The notes under the pieces were generated by a model, which had not been told where the DNA came from, did no database searches, and was given only the letters and a program-made list of their open reading frames with translations. The position numbers were made by a program, and so were the translations under genes. A stretch of 64,000 nt of DNA from Gemmatimonadota bacterium (GTDB lineage Bacteria; Gemmatimonadota; Gemmatimonadetes; Gemmatimonadales; Gemmatimonadaceae): NCBI GenBank assembly GCA_027307165.1, contig DAHUXM010000034.1, positions 1-64,000 on the forward strand, read 5' to 3'. The number at the start of each line of letters is the position of its first letter. The first letter of the stretch is position 1. Of the stretch, positions 16,833 through 30,679 are shown piece after piece.

Positions 16833-17978
16833 GTGAGCGGTACCGCGGAAGGCCAGGCCCTGCTCGCGGGCATTGGCGGAACGGCGCGTCCGGCAGGATC
16901 TGCCGCCGAGTCGGCCGCTCGGAGCATTTGTGCGACGTGGCTGACCGACGCTGGTTTCGTGGTGGAGGAACGCCATTTCGACTACTCTGCGTTCCCCGGG
17001 ACGTGGGGAACGCCGATCGCGGGGCTGGTGCTCCTCGCCGCAGCGATCGTCGCCGCAATTGGGATTGTGCGCGGGGGAGCGGCGACTGACACGGCCCTGG
17101 CAGTCGGAATTGCGCTGGTCGTTGCCGTTTCCGTGTCGGGATGGTGGCTGGGCCGGTATGGCACGCGCCGACTTCCGTTCGCGCGCAGGTTCGGGGTCAA
17201 TCTCGAGGGTCGTCGCGGTGTTCCTTCCGTGTGGCTCGTGGCCCACCTGGACAGCAAGAGCCAGCCGGTCTCGCTGCTGATTCGAGCCGCCGCCGCGGTG
17301 GGAGTTCTGGCCAGCTGGGTCTGTCTGATTCTGGTTTGGACCGGTTCTCGCATCTTGCCCCTGCCGGGTGCGCTGCTGCTTGGTGCGGCCACCTGCGGAG
17401 CCGTTGCTTCTGTGCCATTATTACTTTCGTGGGTTGGCACACGCGGTAGCGGGGCGCTGGACAATGCCAGCGGGGTCGCAGCCATTCTGAGGGCCGCGAG
17501 CATCATCGACCGGGCGATCCCCGTCGGAGTGCTCATAACTTCCGCGGAGGAACTGGGCCTCGCCGGTGCACGTGCCTGGGTGCAATCGAAGGGCCCTGGC
17601 GTGGTGATTAACTGTGATGGTGTGGATGACCGGGGCGCGCTGACAATTACAGCCACTGGCGCCGGACGTCATCTATTGCAGTCTTTGCGCAGGACTGGGA
17701 TGCTGGGCTTCGACGCTCGAATTCGCCGAGGACTTCCAGGGATCCTTGTGGACTCGACGGCATTTGCGGATGAGGGATGGGCGGCGTGCACTGTCAGCCG
17801 GGGAACGCGTTATTCGCTTGCCCGGGTGCACACTGCGCACGATACTCTGGACAGAATGTCCGGCGTCGGCGTCGAAAGTGCGGCCGGTGTGATTGCTTCA
17901 CTCGTCGGCGCAATCGTTGCAGCGCGTAACAGCTCGAAGGGGGTTTTCGACGGAAATGGAACGACAGCCATTGAGTGA
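16833..17978 (+). CDS. Membrane-anchored M28-family zinc peptidase
   Basis: This is an M28-type zinc exopeptidase-like protein. The metal and catalytic motifs appear in order: VAHLDSKSQ (His and Asp), GALDNASGVAAIL (bridging Asp), SAEELGLAGA (catalytic Glu and a Glu ligand) and the late RVHTAHDT histidine. Unusually, about four hydrophobic stretches are embedded: two before VAHLD and two between VAHLD and GALDN, so the catalytic domain seems threaded by membrane segments. It has a GTG start and 381 residues. It sits between trpS and gvpF and overlaps gvpF by 23 bases. Confidence 0.8.
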   Translation: MSGTAEGQALLAGIGGTARPAGSAAESAARSICATWLTDAGFVVEERHFDYSAFPGTWGTPIAGLVLLAAAIVAAIGIVRGGAATDTALAVGIALVVAVSVSGWWLGRYGTRRLPFARRFGVNLEGRRGVPSVWLVAHLDSKSQPVSLLIRAAAAVGVLASWVCLILVWTGSRILPLPGALLLGAATCGAVASVPLLLSWVGTRGSGALDNASGVAAILRAASIIDRAIPVGVLITSAEELGLAGARAWVQSKGPGVVINCDGVDDRGALTITATGAGRHLLQSLRRTGMLGFDARIRRGLPGILVDSTAFADEGWAACTVSRGTRYSLARVHTAHDTLDRMSGVGVESAAGVIASLVGAIVAARNSSKGVFDGNGTTAIE

Positions 17979-18816
17979 CGACAGAATGAGCGCGCTCGAC
18001 GCATCGCTTTTCGACGCCAGCAGCGAATCCGACGTTGCGGGCGATTCGCTCGCGGTCGCGCCGGCCGAAGGCAAGTACGTCTACTGCATCATCCGGCATC
18101 AGGCTCCGCGGGATTTCGGTGACATAGGCATCGGTGGCGGCGCCCGCGTTTACACCGTCCATCATGAGGATCTGGCCGCCGTGGTAAGCGACACGCCGAT
18201 CGTGATCTACGATCCGACGCGTGAGAACGTGCTCGCACACGAATTCGTGAATGAAACGGTTATGCGCGAGTTCACCGTCATCCCGATGTCGTTCGGAACG
18301 GTCTTCCGGTCGGAAGAGGATGTGGGACAGCTGCTTCGCTCCACGTACGAAGCGTTCACCGACGTTCTCGAAAAGATGAAGGACAAGATCGAGTTCGGTG
18401 TGCAGATCCGCTGGGATCGCGATCGGGTCGTCGAGAGCATCGAGCAGGACAATGACGAGATTCGAAAGCTGAAGGACGAGATCACGCGCAACGCGTCGTC
18501 CTCTACCTATTTCGCTCGCATGCAGCTCGGACGGTTGATCGAGGGTGCGCTGGAAGACTGTGCCAGCCGGTACGTCGCCACTGTCCACGAGGAGCTCAAG
18601 CGGGTTTCAGTCGCGAGCAGGAGCAACAAGGTCATCGGCGACCGGATGATCATGAACGCCGCGTTTCTGGTGAACCGATCGGGTGAGAAGGCGTTCGATG
18701 AAGTCGTGAAGGAGCTCAGCCGTCGCTACGAGCACCTTCTCGCGTTCAAGTACACCGGACCGTGGCCGCCGTACAATTTCGTCAACATCAAGCTCAAGCT
18801 GGAGAAGGCCAACTAG
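17956..18816 (+). CDS. gvpF: Gas vesicle protein GvpF/GvpL family
   Basis: GvpF/GvpL proteins are accessory factors for gas-vesicle assembly, and GvpF is known to bind GvpA. The family is seen from GKYVYCIIRHQ near residue 40, FTVIPMSFGTVFRSEEDV, the central helical FGVQIRWDRDRVVE region and the C-terminal FKYTGPWPPYNFVNI motif. The ATG at 17956 lies 12 bases after AAGGGGG and overlaps the peptidase gene by 23 bases; a later ATG at 17986 lacks a clear ribosome-binding site. About 286 residues. gvpG follows after one base. Confidence 0.9.
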   Translation: MERQPLSDDRMSALDASLFDASSESDVAGDSLAVAPAEGKYVYCIIRHQAPRDFGDIGIGGGARVYTVHHEDLAAVVSDTPIVIYDPTRENVLAHEFVNETVMREFTVIPMSFGTVFRSEEDVGQLLRSTYEAFTDVLEKMKDKIEFGVQIRWDRDRVVESIEQDNDEIRKLKDEITRNASSSTYFARMQLGRLIEGALEDCASRYVATVHEELKRVSVASRSNKVIGDRMIMNAAFLVNRSGEKAFDEVVKELSRRYEHLLAFKYTGPWPPYNFVNIKLKLEKAN

Positions 18817-18817
18817 C

Positions 18818-19123
18818 ATGGGGCTGCTGTCGTCCATCCTCCTTGCACCATTCACCGGGCCGTGGGACGGCACGATGTGGACGCTGGACAAGGTGCGTCG
18901 CGCGGTCGAGGACGAGCTGACGGACGACTCCACGATCAAGGAAGACCTCATGCGCCTCCAGCTGGAGCTCGAGGCTGGTGACATCGACGAGGATGAATAT
19001 CTGGAGCGCGAGAAGGCAATAATGCTGCGCCTCCGCGAGGTGCGTGCGTGGCGCGAGCAGTTGGGAATGTCAGTCGGTGGTGGCCCCGTGCGCGTCGCGC
19101 GTGACGACGACAACGCGCGTTGA
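18818..19123 (+). CDS. gvpG: Gas vesicle protein GvpG
   Basis: GvpG is a small, mostly helical accessory protein in gas-vesicle operons. This 101-residue product starts GLLSSILLAPFTGPWDG, typical of the family, followed by a charged helix with the block EDLMRLQLELEAGDIDEDEYL and a C-terminal helix. It sits between two GvpF/L genes, the same arrangement as gvpF-gvpG-gvpL in Bacillus. The stop overlaps the TTG start of the next gene by 4 bases. Confidence 0.88.
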   Translation: MGLLSSILLAPFTGPWDGTMWTLDKVRRAVEDELTDDSTIKEDLMRLQLELEAGDIDEDEYLEREKAIMLRLREVRAWREQLGMSVGGGPVRVARDDDNAR

Positions 19124-19902
19124 CGGGGACGGTCGAGTATGTCTACTGCGTCGTGCCGGCGACGTTCGTGCTGAGTAACGCGCCGCGTGGAATCGATCGC
19201 GCTCCGGTTCGAAGCATCGTGCACGCCGATGTCGCCGCGCTCGTGACGGCGCTTGACGCAAACGAGTACTCCGGCGACGCACCGTCGGAGCGCATGGGCG
19301 ATCCGGAGTGGCTCACGCCCCGGGCATTCGCACACGACGCGGTCATTACATGGGCCGCGGATCGCGGCGCCGTCGTACCTTTTTCGATGTGGGCGATGTT
19401 CAGCGACGAGCGCGCCGTGTCGGAGATGCTGGACGACAGGCATGATGAATTTCGCGTGATGCTGGATCGAGTGAGTGGTGCACGCGAGCTATGCGTGCGC
19501 ATCTCCGCCGATCAGGCCGCGCTCGCCAATGCCGCCGAACAGATGGATGCCGGGCTGGGCGAGCTCGAGCGTCAGGCTGACGCGGCCTCGCCTGGCCAGG
19601 CGTACCTTCTGCGCAGAAAACTCTCTGAGCTGCGCAGATCCGCGAGCCGCGATGCCGGATCGCGAATAGCGGAGCTTGCGCACGCCGCGCTGGCCGATCG
19701 CTCGCGCGAAAGCGTGGCACGCGCCAGCTCGGCATCGAACGAGCAAGGGGTGCTCCTGGACGGCGCGTATCTGGTCGACAACGACCACTACGATTCGTTC
19801 AGATCAGCCCTGACCGAACTCATCGCGACATACGGGCCGGCTGGATTGAGTTTTGATTTCACCGGACCGTGGCCGCCCTACCACTTCGTCCGTGGTCGCT
19901 GA
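19120..19902 (+). CDS. gvpL: Gas vesicle protein GvpL/GvpF family, second copy
   Basis: This is a second GvpF/L-family protein of 260 residues, starting with TTG inside the gvpG stop (TTGA overlap). The N-terminal strand VEYVYCVVPATFVLS and the C-terminal FDFTGPWPPYHFVRG match the upstream copy, while the middle differs, with an alanine-rich helical region (ANAAEQMDAGLGELERQADA). By position it corresponds to gvpL of Bacillus-type operons. Confidence 0.87.
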   Translation: MTGTVEYVYCVVPATFVLSNAPRGIDRAPVRSIVHADVAALVTALDANEYSGDAPSERMGDPEWLTPRAFAHDAVITWAADRGAVVPFSMWAMFSDERAVSEMLDDRHDEFRVMLDRVSGARELCVRISADQAALANAAEQMDAGLGELERQADAASPGQAYLLRRKLSELRRSASRDAGSRIAELAHAALADRSRESVARASSASNEQGVLLDGAYLVDNDHYDSFRSALTELIATYGPAGLSFDFTGPWPPYHFVRGR

Positions 19903-19945
19903 GTCCGACTCACGCGACGACCCGCTGGAGGGGTCTTTCGAGGAG

Positions 19946-20566
19946 ATGCAGGTAGGTCAGCCGGCAACTCTGCTGGGTGACGAGCCGCTCGACCTCAGCG
20001 ATCTGCTCAATACGGTCCTCGACCGGGGTGCGGTAGTGCACGGCGAGGTCACGATCGCCGTCGCGGACGTGGATTTGATCAAGCTCAACATCGGGTTGCT
20101 GCTCCAGGCTGTCGCGACGGCTGAGCGGAGGATGCGAGCCTCGCCCGAGCCGTCACGGTCGATCGCTGGTAGTTTTGGGTCGATTCCGCGTACTGCTGCG
20201 CCGATACTTGCGAGAGCAGAGCGAGGAGATACGGAGCCGCCAGCGCTCGTCGAGACGGAGCAGCCGACCGGGCAATCACTCAACAGCGTGGCTCAAGGTT
20301 TACCCGAGCGGATCAACGCCGACGCGGCCGGTCCTGAAACCGGGCTCGCACGGCTGGTGTTGACCTTGATCGAGGTGCTCAGGAAGGTTCTGGAACATCA
20401 GGCTGTCCGGCGCATGGAGGGTGGACGGCTGACAGATGAGGAAGTGGAGCGGTTGGGACTGGCTCTTGCGAGGTTGAATGATAGAATGAGTGAGCTCAAA
20501 CGCGTTTTCGGCCTTTCGGAGGAAGATTTGCAAATTGACCTTGGTCCACTGGGGCGTGTGCGATGA
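19946..20566 (+). CDS. gvpK: Fusion of a GvpA/GvpS-like domain to GvpK
   Basis: This gene seems to join two gas-vesicle proteins. Residues 14-60 are a GvpA-family fold (LDLSDLLNTVLDRGAVVHGE, then IAVADVDLIKLNIGLLLQAV). Residues 61-120 are a variable linker rich in Pro, Glu and Ser. Residues 120-203 match GvpK (RINADAAGPETGLARLVLTL, IEVLRKVLEHQAVRRME, LTDEEVERLGLALARL, ending IDLGPLGRV). In Bacillus-type operons gvpS and gvpK are adjacent separate genes, which suggests a gene fusion. I chose the ATG at 19946, 11 bases after GGAGGGGT; GTG 19892 or TTG 19853 would lengthen it into gvpL. Confidence 0.82.
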   Translation: MQVGQPATLLGDEPLDLSDLLNTVLDRGAVVHGEVTIAVADVDLIKLNIGLLLQAVATAERRMRASPEPSRSIAGSFGSIPRTAAPILARAERGDTEPPALVETEQPTGQSLNSVAQGLPERINADAAGPETGLARLVLTLIEVLRKVLEHQAVRRMEGGRLTDEEVERLGLALARLNDRMSELKRVFGLSEEDLQIDLGPLGRVR

Positions 20567-20575
20567 GGCTGCCAA

Positions 20576-20878
20576 GTGCCTGAACTAGTCTCCCCATCAC
20601 GCAGCACCGGGCTGGTCGAGATTCTCGACCGCGTTCTCGACAAGGGACTGGTGATCGCCGGCGACATCAAAATCAATCTCGCCAACGTCGAGTTGCTCAC
20701 GATTCAGATCCGTCTGCTCGTCTGCTCCATCGACAAGGCGGAACAGATAGGTATGAACTGGTGGCGGTACGACCCGCGTCTGACGAGCCAGACGGCGCCT
20801 GCCGTCGCGGCGAGCGATCTCAATGATCGGCTCGACCGCATCGAGCGTCAGCTCGCCAAGTTGTCTTCATCTGACTAG
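20576..20878 (+). CDS. gvpJ: Gas vesicle protein GvpJ-like (GvpA family)
   Basis: A GvpA-family minor structural protein. The core [20 protein letters not shown] then [20 protein letters not shown] is close to GvpJ, and the IGMNWW sequence after the core corresponds to the IGMDWW found in Bacillus GvpJ. A C-terminal tail of about 35 residues ([18 protein letters not shown]) is probably helical. It has a GTG start and 100 residues. In other organisms GvpJ is a minor, essential component thought to act in nucleation. Confidence 0.85.
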
Positions 20879-20886
20879 GAGGAGTC

Positions 20887-21183
20887 ATGGCCGTTGAGCG
20901 GTCACCGAGCGGAAGCTCACTTATCGACATTCTCGACCGGGTTCTCGACAAGGGAATCGTAATCGACGCGTGGGTACGCGTCTCGCTCGTTGGAATCGAC
21001 CTCGTAACCGTGGAAGCACGAATCGTGGTCGCATCGATCGAGACGTACCTGAAGTATTCGGAAGCAGTCGGCATAACGCAGCCAATGTCGCGTCCCCGCG
21101 AGCTGGCGCAGGCCGACGAGCTCGAACGCGTACAAATCGAGAACGCAGAGCTACGGCGTCGCCTTGACCAGCTCGGCGCGTGA
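20887..21183 (+). CDS. gvpA: Major gas vesicle structural protein GvpA
   Basis: GvpA polymerises into the gas-filled protein shell. The signature [19 protein letters not shown] and the [21 protein letters not shown] helix are nearly textbook. GGAGG sits just before the ATG at 20887. The protein is 98 residues, about 25 longer than classical GvpA, because a charged helical tail ([20 protein letters not shown]) follows the core. It is unusual for gvpA to be last in its cluster. The kinase gene overlaps its end by 20 bases. Confidence 0.92.
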
Positions 21184-23446
21184 CCGTACGACGGTAGATG
21201 CACGCGAGAGTGATTCCGCCGCGTGGCTGGAATCACTCCTCGCTGATGTGGCAGCGTCTCCCGATTTCGGATCGGCAGCTGGATTGTTGCTGGCGCGGTT
21301 CTGCGGCCTCGTTGGATCGAGTCGCGGATACGTTCTGGTACTTGACGCCGCGGCGAGCCAGCTCGTGCCATCAGTCTCGCTCGGCTACGAAACGCTCGAC
21401 GCGCCGACCGCGCGCACGATGGACGATCCGAACGATCCGTTCGTGGTTGCGTTGCTCGGCATGCAGGTCGTTGCATGCTCGCACGGCGTTCCGCGCCCGG
21501 GTATTTCGCGCCGGACGCGGCTCATGGCCGTGCCATTTCCGCAGTCTCGCGTCGTCGACGCACCGCGTTTCATCGATCGTGCAGATGCCGATCGGCGATT
21601 GTCGAGTCCATGTTCGATAGCTGCCGTCGACTCATCGCGCGAGTGGCAGGAGCGGCCCGACCACGCGGCACTCTCGCCTTATGGTGTGTTCGTCCTGGAG
21701 ACGGAGTCGCTTCCGGCCACTCTGGATCGGATCGTACGCGCGGCGCAGCTCGCCGGTCCGATGCTGTCCCGGCTCGCCGCCTCGGACGCGCATCGCGGTC
21801 GCGCCGAGGAATTGGCGGACCAGCGCGCAGTGCTCACATCGATCGTCAATTCGCTGCCTGATCCGATCGTCATCATCGACGGCGAGCGGCAGATCGTTGT
21901 GCAGAATCAGCGCGCCGAGCATCTGTTGAGCATGCGCGAGCGCGATTCCGAGGGCCGCCGCCGCGCAGTTGAAATCAACAACCTGCTGCTTACGTCGCAC
22001 CTCTCCAAGGACGCTGCGCCCTCTGGTACCAATGTCGCTGCGGAAGCGCGTGAGCTGAACATGGTGGATCCGGATGATGGGACAGATCTGCTGTTCGAAG
22101 TTCTCACGCAACCGCTCGACGAGAACGACAATGCGATAGTGTCGGTGCTGCGTGATGTGACGGATCTCCGTCGCGCAGCCAACGAGCTCGAGTTGCAGGT
22201 GCAGCGTGTACGACTCGCGGAGTACGAAGCAAAGCGCGAGAGTGATCGTCTCAATCTGATTCTCACGAATGTTGCCGATCCGATCCTGGTCACCGACGAT
22301 CGTGCGAACATAATCCTCATGAATCGGCAGGCCGAGCTGCTGTTCGGGTCTGCGACGCCCAACATCGGCTACGCGACCGGGGACCGTTCCGCCGCGGTTC
22401 GTGCCAACGATACAAGGTTCACGACGTTCATATCGGATTTCAGCCTGAGCCCCGAGTCTGCGCGGCGCGAGGACATGGAGCTTCTGCAGCCCGGTAATGA
22501 GCCGGTGACGATTCCAATGGAAGTCGTCGCCGGCAAGATCCTCGACCGGCGCGGTGAGCCGCTCGCGATCGTTTCAGTGCTGCACGACCTCACGGAACAG
22601 GCGGAGAACGAGCGGCTGTATGAAGAGCTCAAGAATTTCAGCAACGAGCTCGAAGCGCGCGTTCGTGCGGCAACCGCCGATCTCGGCGAGCAGAACGTCC
22701 GGCTGCAATGGCAGTCACGCGAACTGGAGAAAGCCAACAGGCTCAAGTCGGAGTTTCTTGCGAGCATGTCGCACGAGCTGCGCACGCCTATCAACGCGCT
22801 GATCGGTTACACTGCGCTCATGCTTGACCGGATCTACGGCGATCTGAATGACCGACAGGAAGAAGGCCTCGTTCGCATCCGTGCGGCGGCACAGCATCTG
22901 CTCGCGCTCATCAATGACATCCTGGACCTCGCGAAGATCGAAGCGGGCCGCATGCCGCTGCATCTGGAAGACACGGTGCTTCAGGAGCTGATACGTGAGG
23001 CGTCGGTGCAGATCGATCCGCTCATCAAGAAGAAGGGACTGACGTACCGCTGGCTCGGCCCCGATGAGCCGCTTCACATGATGACCGATCGTACCAAGGT
23101 CAAGCAGATCATGCTGAACCTGCTCTCCAACGCAGTGAAATTCACCCACTCGGGAAGCGTCACCCTCACGGCGCGGCAGGAGGACGATCTGGTTCGGTTG
23201 GACGTGGCGGATACCGGCATCGGCATCCGTAAGGAAGACCTGTCCGCCATATGGGACGACTTCCGGCAGGTGGACCAGTCGCGCACACGCGAGTTTGGCG
23301 GGACGGGGCTGGGCCTCAGTATCACGCGAAAGCTGTCCGGGGCGCTCGGGGGTCGCGTGACTCTCAGCAGCGAGTACGGGAAGGGATCCACGTTTACCAT
23401 CTTTCTGCCGATCCGCTCCGAGCCGCACAGCGAGCGGGATGGCTGA
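21164..23446 (+). CDS. Cytoplasmic PAS-domain sensor histidine kinase
   Basis: A hybrid-free histidine kinase of 760 residues with no transmembrane segment. The N-terminal ~200 residues look GAF-like ([19 protein letters not shown]). Two PAS-like domains follow at about 222-335 ([20 protein letters not shown]) and 360-480 ([20 protein letters not shown]), then a coiled coil and HisKA with SHELRTP, the phospho-accepting His at about 537. The ATPase shows [15 protein letters not shown] and GGTGLGLSI. The TTG start overlaps gvpA. It may sense a cytoplasmic signal relevant to the vesicle genes, but no response regulator is next to it. Confidence 0.9.
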
Positions 23447-29484: not shown

Positions 29485-30306
29485 ATGCCCGAAGGGAACA
29501 GAACGACCCCGGCGCCGGCGGTGCTGCGGCTGGTGCAAATGGCGATCATCGACCGCTGGCGAGCTACGGGAGAGGATCTCTACCGTGAGGTCGCCCGGCT
29601 CGCCGACCTCGAGCAGGGGCAGGACGTCGTCGTGTCCGGTTGCGGGCGCGGCGTCACCACGGAATGGCTGGCGCTCCGCACGGGCGCATCGGTAACCGGC
29701 GTCGATCCGGACGACGAGGACATCACGCAGGCCGAGGAGCACGCGCGCGAGACCGGCCTGGGTATCAGCTACCAGCATTCAGAGCTGGATGACCTGCCGT
29801 ACGAGACGGGCGTATTCGATGCGGCCATCGGCGAGCCGGAAATCGCCGCTGCTGCGAGCACTGGACGGGCAGTGGCCGAGCTCGCGCGCGTTACCAAGCC
29901 CATGGGCGCAGTAGTGCTGCTCCAGCTGACATGGAGCTCCGACCTCTCGGCGTCGCGCCGGGAGCTGGTCGTCGAGCGTCTGGGGCTTCGCCCGCGCATG
30001 GTGGTCGAGTGGAAGCAGATGCTGCGCGAGGCTGGCGTCGTGGACATCCAGGTGAAGGACTGGACCAACGAGTGCGACGACGAGCTGGTACCGGACGGCG
30101 CTGATGCATCTCCGCGCCTGAACTGGCAGGCGAAGGTCCAGATCATGGGTCGGGCGCTGCGCAGGTCGGGTTGGGCTGAAGCGCGCCAGGCGCTCGTTCG
30201 CGAAACTGAATTGCTGCGCGATCTGTCGCGCGAGCGGTCGATGAACTTCTCCATCATCAAGGGAGTGAAGTGGCCGCACGCCATGCCGGCGATCGCGCAT
30301 GGCTAG
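29485..30306 (+). CDS. SAM-dependent methyltransferase, unknown substrate
   Basis: A Rossmann-type methyltransferase of 273 residues. Motif I is VVVSGCGRGVTTEWLAL followed by VTGVDPDDED, and FDAAIGEPE with LARVTKPMGAVVLLQ are the later strands. The ATG at 29485 is chosen because the longer frame would overlap the deacetylase gene. It overlaps the GvpF-like gene by 8 bases, so the two are probably co-translated. The substrate is unknown. Confidence 0.78.
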   Translation: MPEGNRTTPAPAVLRLVQMAIIDRWRATGEDLYREVARLADLEQGQDVVVSGCGRGVTTEWLALRTGASVTGVDPDDEDITQAEEHARETGLGISYQHSELDDLPYETGVFDAAIGEPEIAAAASTGRAVAELARVTKPMGAVVLLQLTWSSDLSASRRELVVERLGLRPRMVVEWKQMLREAGVVDIQVKDWTNECDDELVPDGADASPRLNWQAKVQIMGRALRRSGWAEARQALVRETELLRDLSRERSMNFSIIKGVKWPHAMPAIAHG

Positions 30307-30679
30307 CGCCAGCGGCAAGTCGGGTCTGCGCTTTTACGGCGTGATCGACGCCGACGCGGGCGATCCGGCGTTGCTCGAGCAGCAGAGCGTGCAGCTCGTC
30401 AAGTATCGTGATCTCGCTGCCGTCGTTGCGATTTCTCCGTACGTTCGCAGTGAGCCCAGCGACGCCGATCTTTCGGATTATGTCCGCGTGGTGGATGCGT
30501 TCAGCGCCAAGGGCACGATAGTTCCCGCGCCACCGGGGACGATATTCCGCGATGAAGTGGTGCTGGCTCGCTGGCTGGATGTTCACTACGGCAAGTTGCA
30601 CGAGGCGATGGCCATGATCGAACAACGTGAAGACGATCGTCCTCCCTACGATTACGTCCGCATGGAACTGGGCGCCTAG
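30299..30679 (+). CDS. Lone short GvpF/GvpL-like protein
   Basis: A 126-residue protein resembling only the N-terminal part of GvpF/GvpL: LRFYGVIDADAGDPALLEQQ, a KYRDLAAVVA strand, then TIVPAPPGTIFRDEVVLARW, corresponding to the FTVIPMSFGTVFRSEEDV region of the cluster's gvpF. The large helical and C-terminal PWPPY parts are missing. It lies about 9 kb from the main cluster, between a methyltransferase and a protein kinase, with an overlap at one side and no gap at the other. It could be a shortened regulator or accessory protein. Confidence 0.7.
   Translation: MASASGKSGLRFYGVIDADAGDPALLEQQSVQLVKYRDLAAVVAISPYVRSEPSDADLSDYVRVVDAFSAKGTIVPAPPGTIFRDEVVLARWLDVHYGKLHEAMAMIEQREDDRPPYDYVRMELGA

Follow-up and report, generated by a model that had tools for sequence, protein, structure and literature searches.

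The gas-vesicle cluster of a soil bacterium of the Gemmatimonadota contains a single open reading frame in which a GvpA-family domain is followed by a GvpK domain. The locus raises the question of whether two gas-vesicle proteins are truly joined here and, if so, how the join arose and what the joined protein might do. It lies in a 64,000-nucleotide stretch of contig DAHUXM010000034.1, referred to below as the window.

A first-pass annotation had described a GvpA-family domain and a full GvpK domain in one frame, and a Pfam profile search bore this out within the stop-free frame at 19946-20566 (206 aa). The Gas_vesicle profile (PF00741) matched residues 17-53 at 38.9 bits (E 9e-10), spanning profile positions 2-38 of 39, and the GvpK profile (PF05121) matched residues 122-204 at 105.7 bits (E 1e-30), spanning positions 1-83 of 85; the cut-off is 25 bits in both cases. 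In whole-genome searches the two matches shared a 238-codon open frame, and the three GvpA-family domains and one GvpK domain of the genome were all located in the gvp cluster, with no second GvpK found elsewhere in the source genome. A 50-codon open frame is not rare in itself in DNA of 62% GC; this one is kept open in many genomes with diverged linkers, and chance is therefore excluded.

The annotated start, ATG 19946, did not survive comparison. It is replaced by TTG, GTG or GTC in congeners and was rejected as the conserved start; the upstream GTG at 19892 is kept in all of them and is therefore the likelier one. Translation probably begins at this GTG, which overlaps the TGA (19900-19902) of the gvpF/L gene just upstream, and the residue numbers in Table 1 follow from it. 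In an AlphaFold model of the fusion, K formed a hairpin of high confidence, S was a weakly modelled GvpA-like domain (helix-strand-strand-helix), and the linker between them was disordered; the pTM of the model was 0.41 and the pLDDT of its S domain was low, and it offered no usable placement of S relative to K. A fold search with the model returned no match at E <= 0.001, and a search of PDB sequences returned no GvpK, GvpA alone being matched, for the S domain.

Table 1. Features of the gvp operon and its fusion gene, in window coordinates.
Feature	Position	Strand	Evidence and remarks
gvpF/L paralogue F1	17893..18816	+	PF06386, 262.7 bits; relatives keep the F1-type position and profile
gvpG	18818..19123	+	PF05120, 69 bits
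gvpF/L paralogue F2	19120..19902	+	PF06386, 184.7 bits; copy in relatives of the same layout matches F2 of unfused clusters, not F3
gvpS-gvpK fusion gene	19892..20566	+	Probable GTG start, ~224 aa; PF00741 and PF05121 above cut-off; start kept in congeners
S-type GvpA-family domain, residues 33-79	19988..20128	+	PF00741
Linker, ~50 residues (80-129), A/P/G/S/R-rich, unconserved, low pLDDT	20129..20278	+	
GvpK domain, residues 130-224, and stop	20279..20566	+	PF05121, 105.7 bits; helical hairpin, pLDDT ~90
gvpJ-like gene	20576..20878	+	PF00741, 61 bits; J position after K
gvpA, main shell protein	20887..21183	+	NF006874, 117 bits (cut-off 100)
PAS-PAS histidine kinase, overlapping the gvpA 3' end	21164..23446	+	Pfam; conserved neighbour

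The type of the first domain was examined with S, J and A profiles built from the loci of this analysis, with classes set by gene position and no B. megaterium GvpS among them. The standalone-gvpS profile was the best match for 19 of 19 distinct fused proteins, by ~14-36 bits over gvpJ or gvpA; congener L013, with its identical S domain, stood in for the window protein. The S domain of congener G002 is likewise identical to that of the window protein and, like those of 18 other fused proteins, fits gvpS above gvpJ or gvpA. These comparisons support assignment of the domain to the GvpS subtype, a class defined by gene position and not by the function of its members, and a GvpJ-K or GvpA-K fusion was rejected because the S profile scores best. 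Against the NCBIfam GvpA model the fusion reached 16.6 bits (cut-off 151) and is not the main shell protein; it also fell below the cut-offs of the GvpJ (20.1 against 125 bits) and GvpM (21.2 against 109 bits) models, both of them haloarchaeal exception models. The GvpS and GvpK identities first proposed were right.

Pfam and NCBIfam searches placed F, G, L, S, K, J and A all within 17893-21183, in the order F1-G-F2-(S-K)-J-A and followed by the histidine kinase; gvpF1 probably starts at ATG 17956 or 17986. In the named collection the operon's nearest relatives come from Gemmatimonadota bins, palsa_1236 and fen_1247 among them. The kinase is likely to serve this operon as a sensor or regulator. 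It adjoins gvpA in fused and unfused Gemmatimonadota alike. Across the whole genome (98% complete) no gvpN was detected, the best match scoring 36.5 bits against a cut-off of 266.8, and no full-length third GvpF; ArsA models gave only short, weak matches, of a kind obtained from every control genome. GvpN is needed for elongation in B. megaterium (PMC11223475), and by analogy the vesicles of this gvpN-less system may resemble bicones, or elongate in some other way.

The origin of the fusion was sought among relatives. The commonest order across the scanned phyla is F-G-(...)-F-S-F-K-J-A, with a gvpF/L gene between S and K. Fused and unfused relatives share one locus, trpS-M28 peptidase-gvp-histidine kinase-purA, which in unfused Gemmatimonadota carries F1-G-(ArsA-like)-F2-S-F3-K-J-A and then the same kinase, with purA beyond it where the contig reaches that far. 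The operon of the fused clade has no ArsA-like gene. Profiles for F1, F2 and F3 were derived from the unfused clusters, and in every fused genome the F ahead of G scored as F1 and the one ahead of S-K as F2, with margins of ~74-350 bits. The two remaining F genes are of F1 and F2 type, and F3 is therefore the lost one; the same assignment rejected F2 as the lost gene. As read from these comparisons, an ancestral F1-G-arsA-F2-S-F3-K-J-A cluster lost arsA and gvpF3, and gvpS now reads through the disordered linker into gvpK. The first-pass comparison with the separate, neighbouring gvpS and gvpK of Bacillus is true of Bacillus, in which the two frames overlap by 47 bp (PMC11223475), but that arrangement is not ancestral here, since the relatives have a gvpF between them.

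Two observations concern the genes missing from this operon. In the unfused clusters the ArsA-like gene, named by eye from its P-loop repeats, encodes a two-domain ATPase between G and F2 (L074, 2112-4100; L070, 2353-4227); ArsA-like ATPases have been noted in gvp clusters of other phyla (PMC2963123). A hidden F3 elsewhere in the genome was considered and rejected, as the only third GvpF/L match, at 30335-30628, belongs to a 126-aa, half-length GvpF/L-like protein (30299-30679, + strand; 47 bits to PF06386) of a separate family, outside the gvp cluster. This protein is kept at 61-97% in congeners and has homologues across the Gemmatimonadaceae, some of them in genomes where GvpK was not detected; the family is possibly GvpF-derived with another function.

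GvpK was matched in 40 of 395 sampled genomes of the phylum, and was fused in 14 of these: four of the window's genus (its own genome included, and all four that were sampled), six of genus g5, three of genus g7, and G043. The fusion is thus carried by 13 sampled genomes across three genera, besides G043, which belongs to another family of the same order as the window's genome. A scan of genome contigs gave 14 window-type fused loci (L056-L069), partly from the same genomes. G043 and its congener G041 have closely similar DNA at this locus, but ~610 bp are missing inside F3 of G043, and the linker of G043 includes the surviving 3' end of F3, read out of frame. G043, a draft bin and a single deletion case, is interpreted as a second, independent fusion event.

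Fusions above the Pfam cut-offs were also found in two Patescibacteria loci (L088 and L114), and others on Methylosinus and Methylocella plasmids; no further GvpK was present in 380 sampled genomes of L088's phylum. The methanotroph proteins (WP_142864684.1, L136 4905-5564; WP_197732044.1, L139 4590-5225) are S-K fusions that RefSeq labels GvpJ, an annotation error. Parsimony on the GvpK tree gave five changes to or from the fused state, at least three of which are required by well-supported branches; the count is approximate because only 87 columns underlie the tree and its methanotroph branches are long. S and K are adjacent yet separate in Planctomycetota and some others. The join had been suggested to be lineage-specific: one Gemmatimonadaceae clade does have it, but fusions in other, unrelated bacteria make it recurrent and not one lineage's own. 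The same join appears to have arisen several times, apparently where the gene between gvpS and gvpK was lost. No account of an S-K fusion emerged from a literature search that left out most subscription papers, and what is new here is how the fusion arose. As a side observation, G119, which also has a fused cluster, carries a second, divergent gvp-like cluster (L045, 1115-3665), in which two GvpA-like domains occur and the GvpK is a distant one.

The strongest part of this account is the evolutionary route by which F3 was lost and S and K were joined; any claim of contact between the domains or of an advantage is the weakest. The gene is a genuine GvpS-GvpK fusion in a cluster that lost arsA and gvpF3, and on balance it seems reasonably likely that its product acts early, as a one-chain adaptor for assembly. 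Such a protein would serve as a single nucleation adaptor: its hydrophobic S domain would join or cap the nascent GvpA tip, its soluble helical K domain would dock on a GvpL/F-centred assembly complex, and the join would set a 1:1 ratio of S to K and keep K at the nucleation site, perhaps taking over a task of the lost F3 gene. The recurrence of the join hints that S and K work side by side, and published interaction data are consistent with both acting at one site. In B. megaterium, deletion of S, K or J singly abolishes the GvpA2-GvpL interaction, S presumably lies at the tips of the vesicles and K is soluble (PMC11445434), and tagged forms of both attach weakly to vesicles, from which urea releases them (PMC11223475). 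The GvpL of haloarchaea has J, K and M as binding partners, and GvpM was recovered with CBD-GvpK (PMC7688916). On the other side, the AlphaFold model, with its low pTM and low-confidence S domain, is uninformative on domain contact, and in a split-GFP study the only partner of GvpK was GvpL, which also partners GvpM, with no contact between K and M (PMC7688916). Because the linker is long and not conserved, the two domains may also act independently of each other. Searches found neither expression data nor a report of gas vesicles for these bacteria, and most of the data come from metagenome bins.

A bolder version, rather doubtful at present, is that GvpF3 ordinarily keeps S and K together where nucleation takes place and that the tether makes this chaperone dispensable, leaving a six-gene system without GvpN, ArsA or F3. 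If this were true, the recurrent fusion would identify S and K as direct partners and supply the missing role of GvpK, a protein that none of the four major gas-vesicle genotypes studied can do without (PMC11445434). Repeated independent fusion of K to a shell-like S is natural 'Rosetta-stone' evidence for partnership, and the protein offers a single-chain, easily tagged construct for locating K and testing the S/K/J-L step. The six-gene operon is smaller than the eight-gene minimal set of B. megaterium and would be of interest for ultrasound reporter engineering if vesicles are made.

The strongest competitor, itself unlikely but deserving real weight, is that the fusion is neutral: once gvpF3 was gone, S and K lay next to each other in the same frame, and loss of the stop was tolerated without functional gain because both ends accept fusions. 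B. megaterium vesicles indeed still form with all GvpS fusions and most GvpK fusions (PMC11445434), and several lineages keep the two genes adjacent but separate. The linker described in the first pass as variable, and here ~50 residues long, evolves fast (dN 0.66-0.95 in distant pairs), as a neutral join would allow; yet its frame always stays open, the fusion persists over three genera and it recurs in distant lineages, although persistence is no proof of advantage. It is improbable that the proteins are fused on paper only, with K made also or mainly from an internal start or the linker cleaved to give separate S and K. Most members do have an in-frame GTG or ATG before K, and G043 retains the ancestral K start ATG, but few internal starts have a Shine-Dalgarno-like motif, their positions differ across genera, and comparison of the fusion genes revealed no conserved internal K start with a ribosome-binding motif. 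Very improbable is a decaying, non-functional cluster whose genes are being lost and joined: the arsA-like gene and gvpF3 are missing relative to kin and the genome has no gvpN, but within the genus identity reaches 97-100% for GvpA and 92-98% for J, three congeners have the full set of six genes, and dN of S and K is only ~0.005-0.10 (dS near-saturated), which places both domains under strong purifying selection. An assembly artefact or frameshift, conceivable in draft bins, is ruled out by the same architecture, without a frame break and with both domains significant, in independent genomes from different projects and on two named plasmids.

Among known systems, Bacillus (Priestia) megaterium resembles this locus in that an S-type GvpA homologue is directly followed by GvpK in the order F-G-L-S-K-J, both being essential for vesicles (PMC11223475, PMC11445434); it differs in that S and K are separate proteins from overlapping frames and in the additional gvpN, R, T and U of its cluster. 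In haloarchaea a small GvpA-like M, treated as a GvpS homologue (PMC11445434), and a soluble K each attach to GvpL as part of a complex that forms early (PMC7688916), but GvpM, GvpJ and GvpK are encoded by separate, unfused genes. The unfused Gemmatimonadota loci L070, L074 and L041 have the same gene families and the same histidine kinase downstream, with purA downstream in L070 and L041 and the M28 peptidase upstream in L070; unlike the window, they have gvpF3 between separate S and K, as well as an ArsA-like ATPase, which was read from L070 and L074. On the Methylosinus plasmid a PAS protein and a response regulator lie upstream of gvpA. The proteins of Methylosinus sp. C49 (WP_142864684.1) and Methylocella tundrae (WP_197732044.1, on a plasmid) share the S-K architecture above Pfam cut-offs, but are alphaproteobacterial, have a divergent K and lie in clusters with gvpN and gvpH/Hsp20; these fusions are probably of independent origin.
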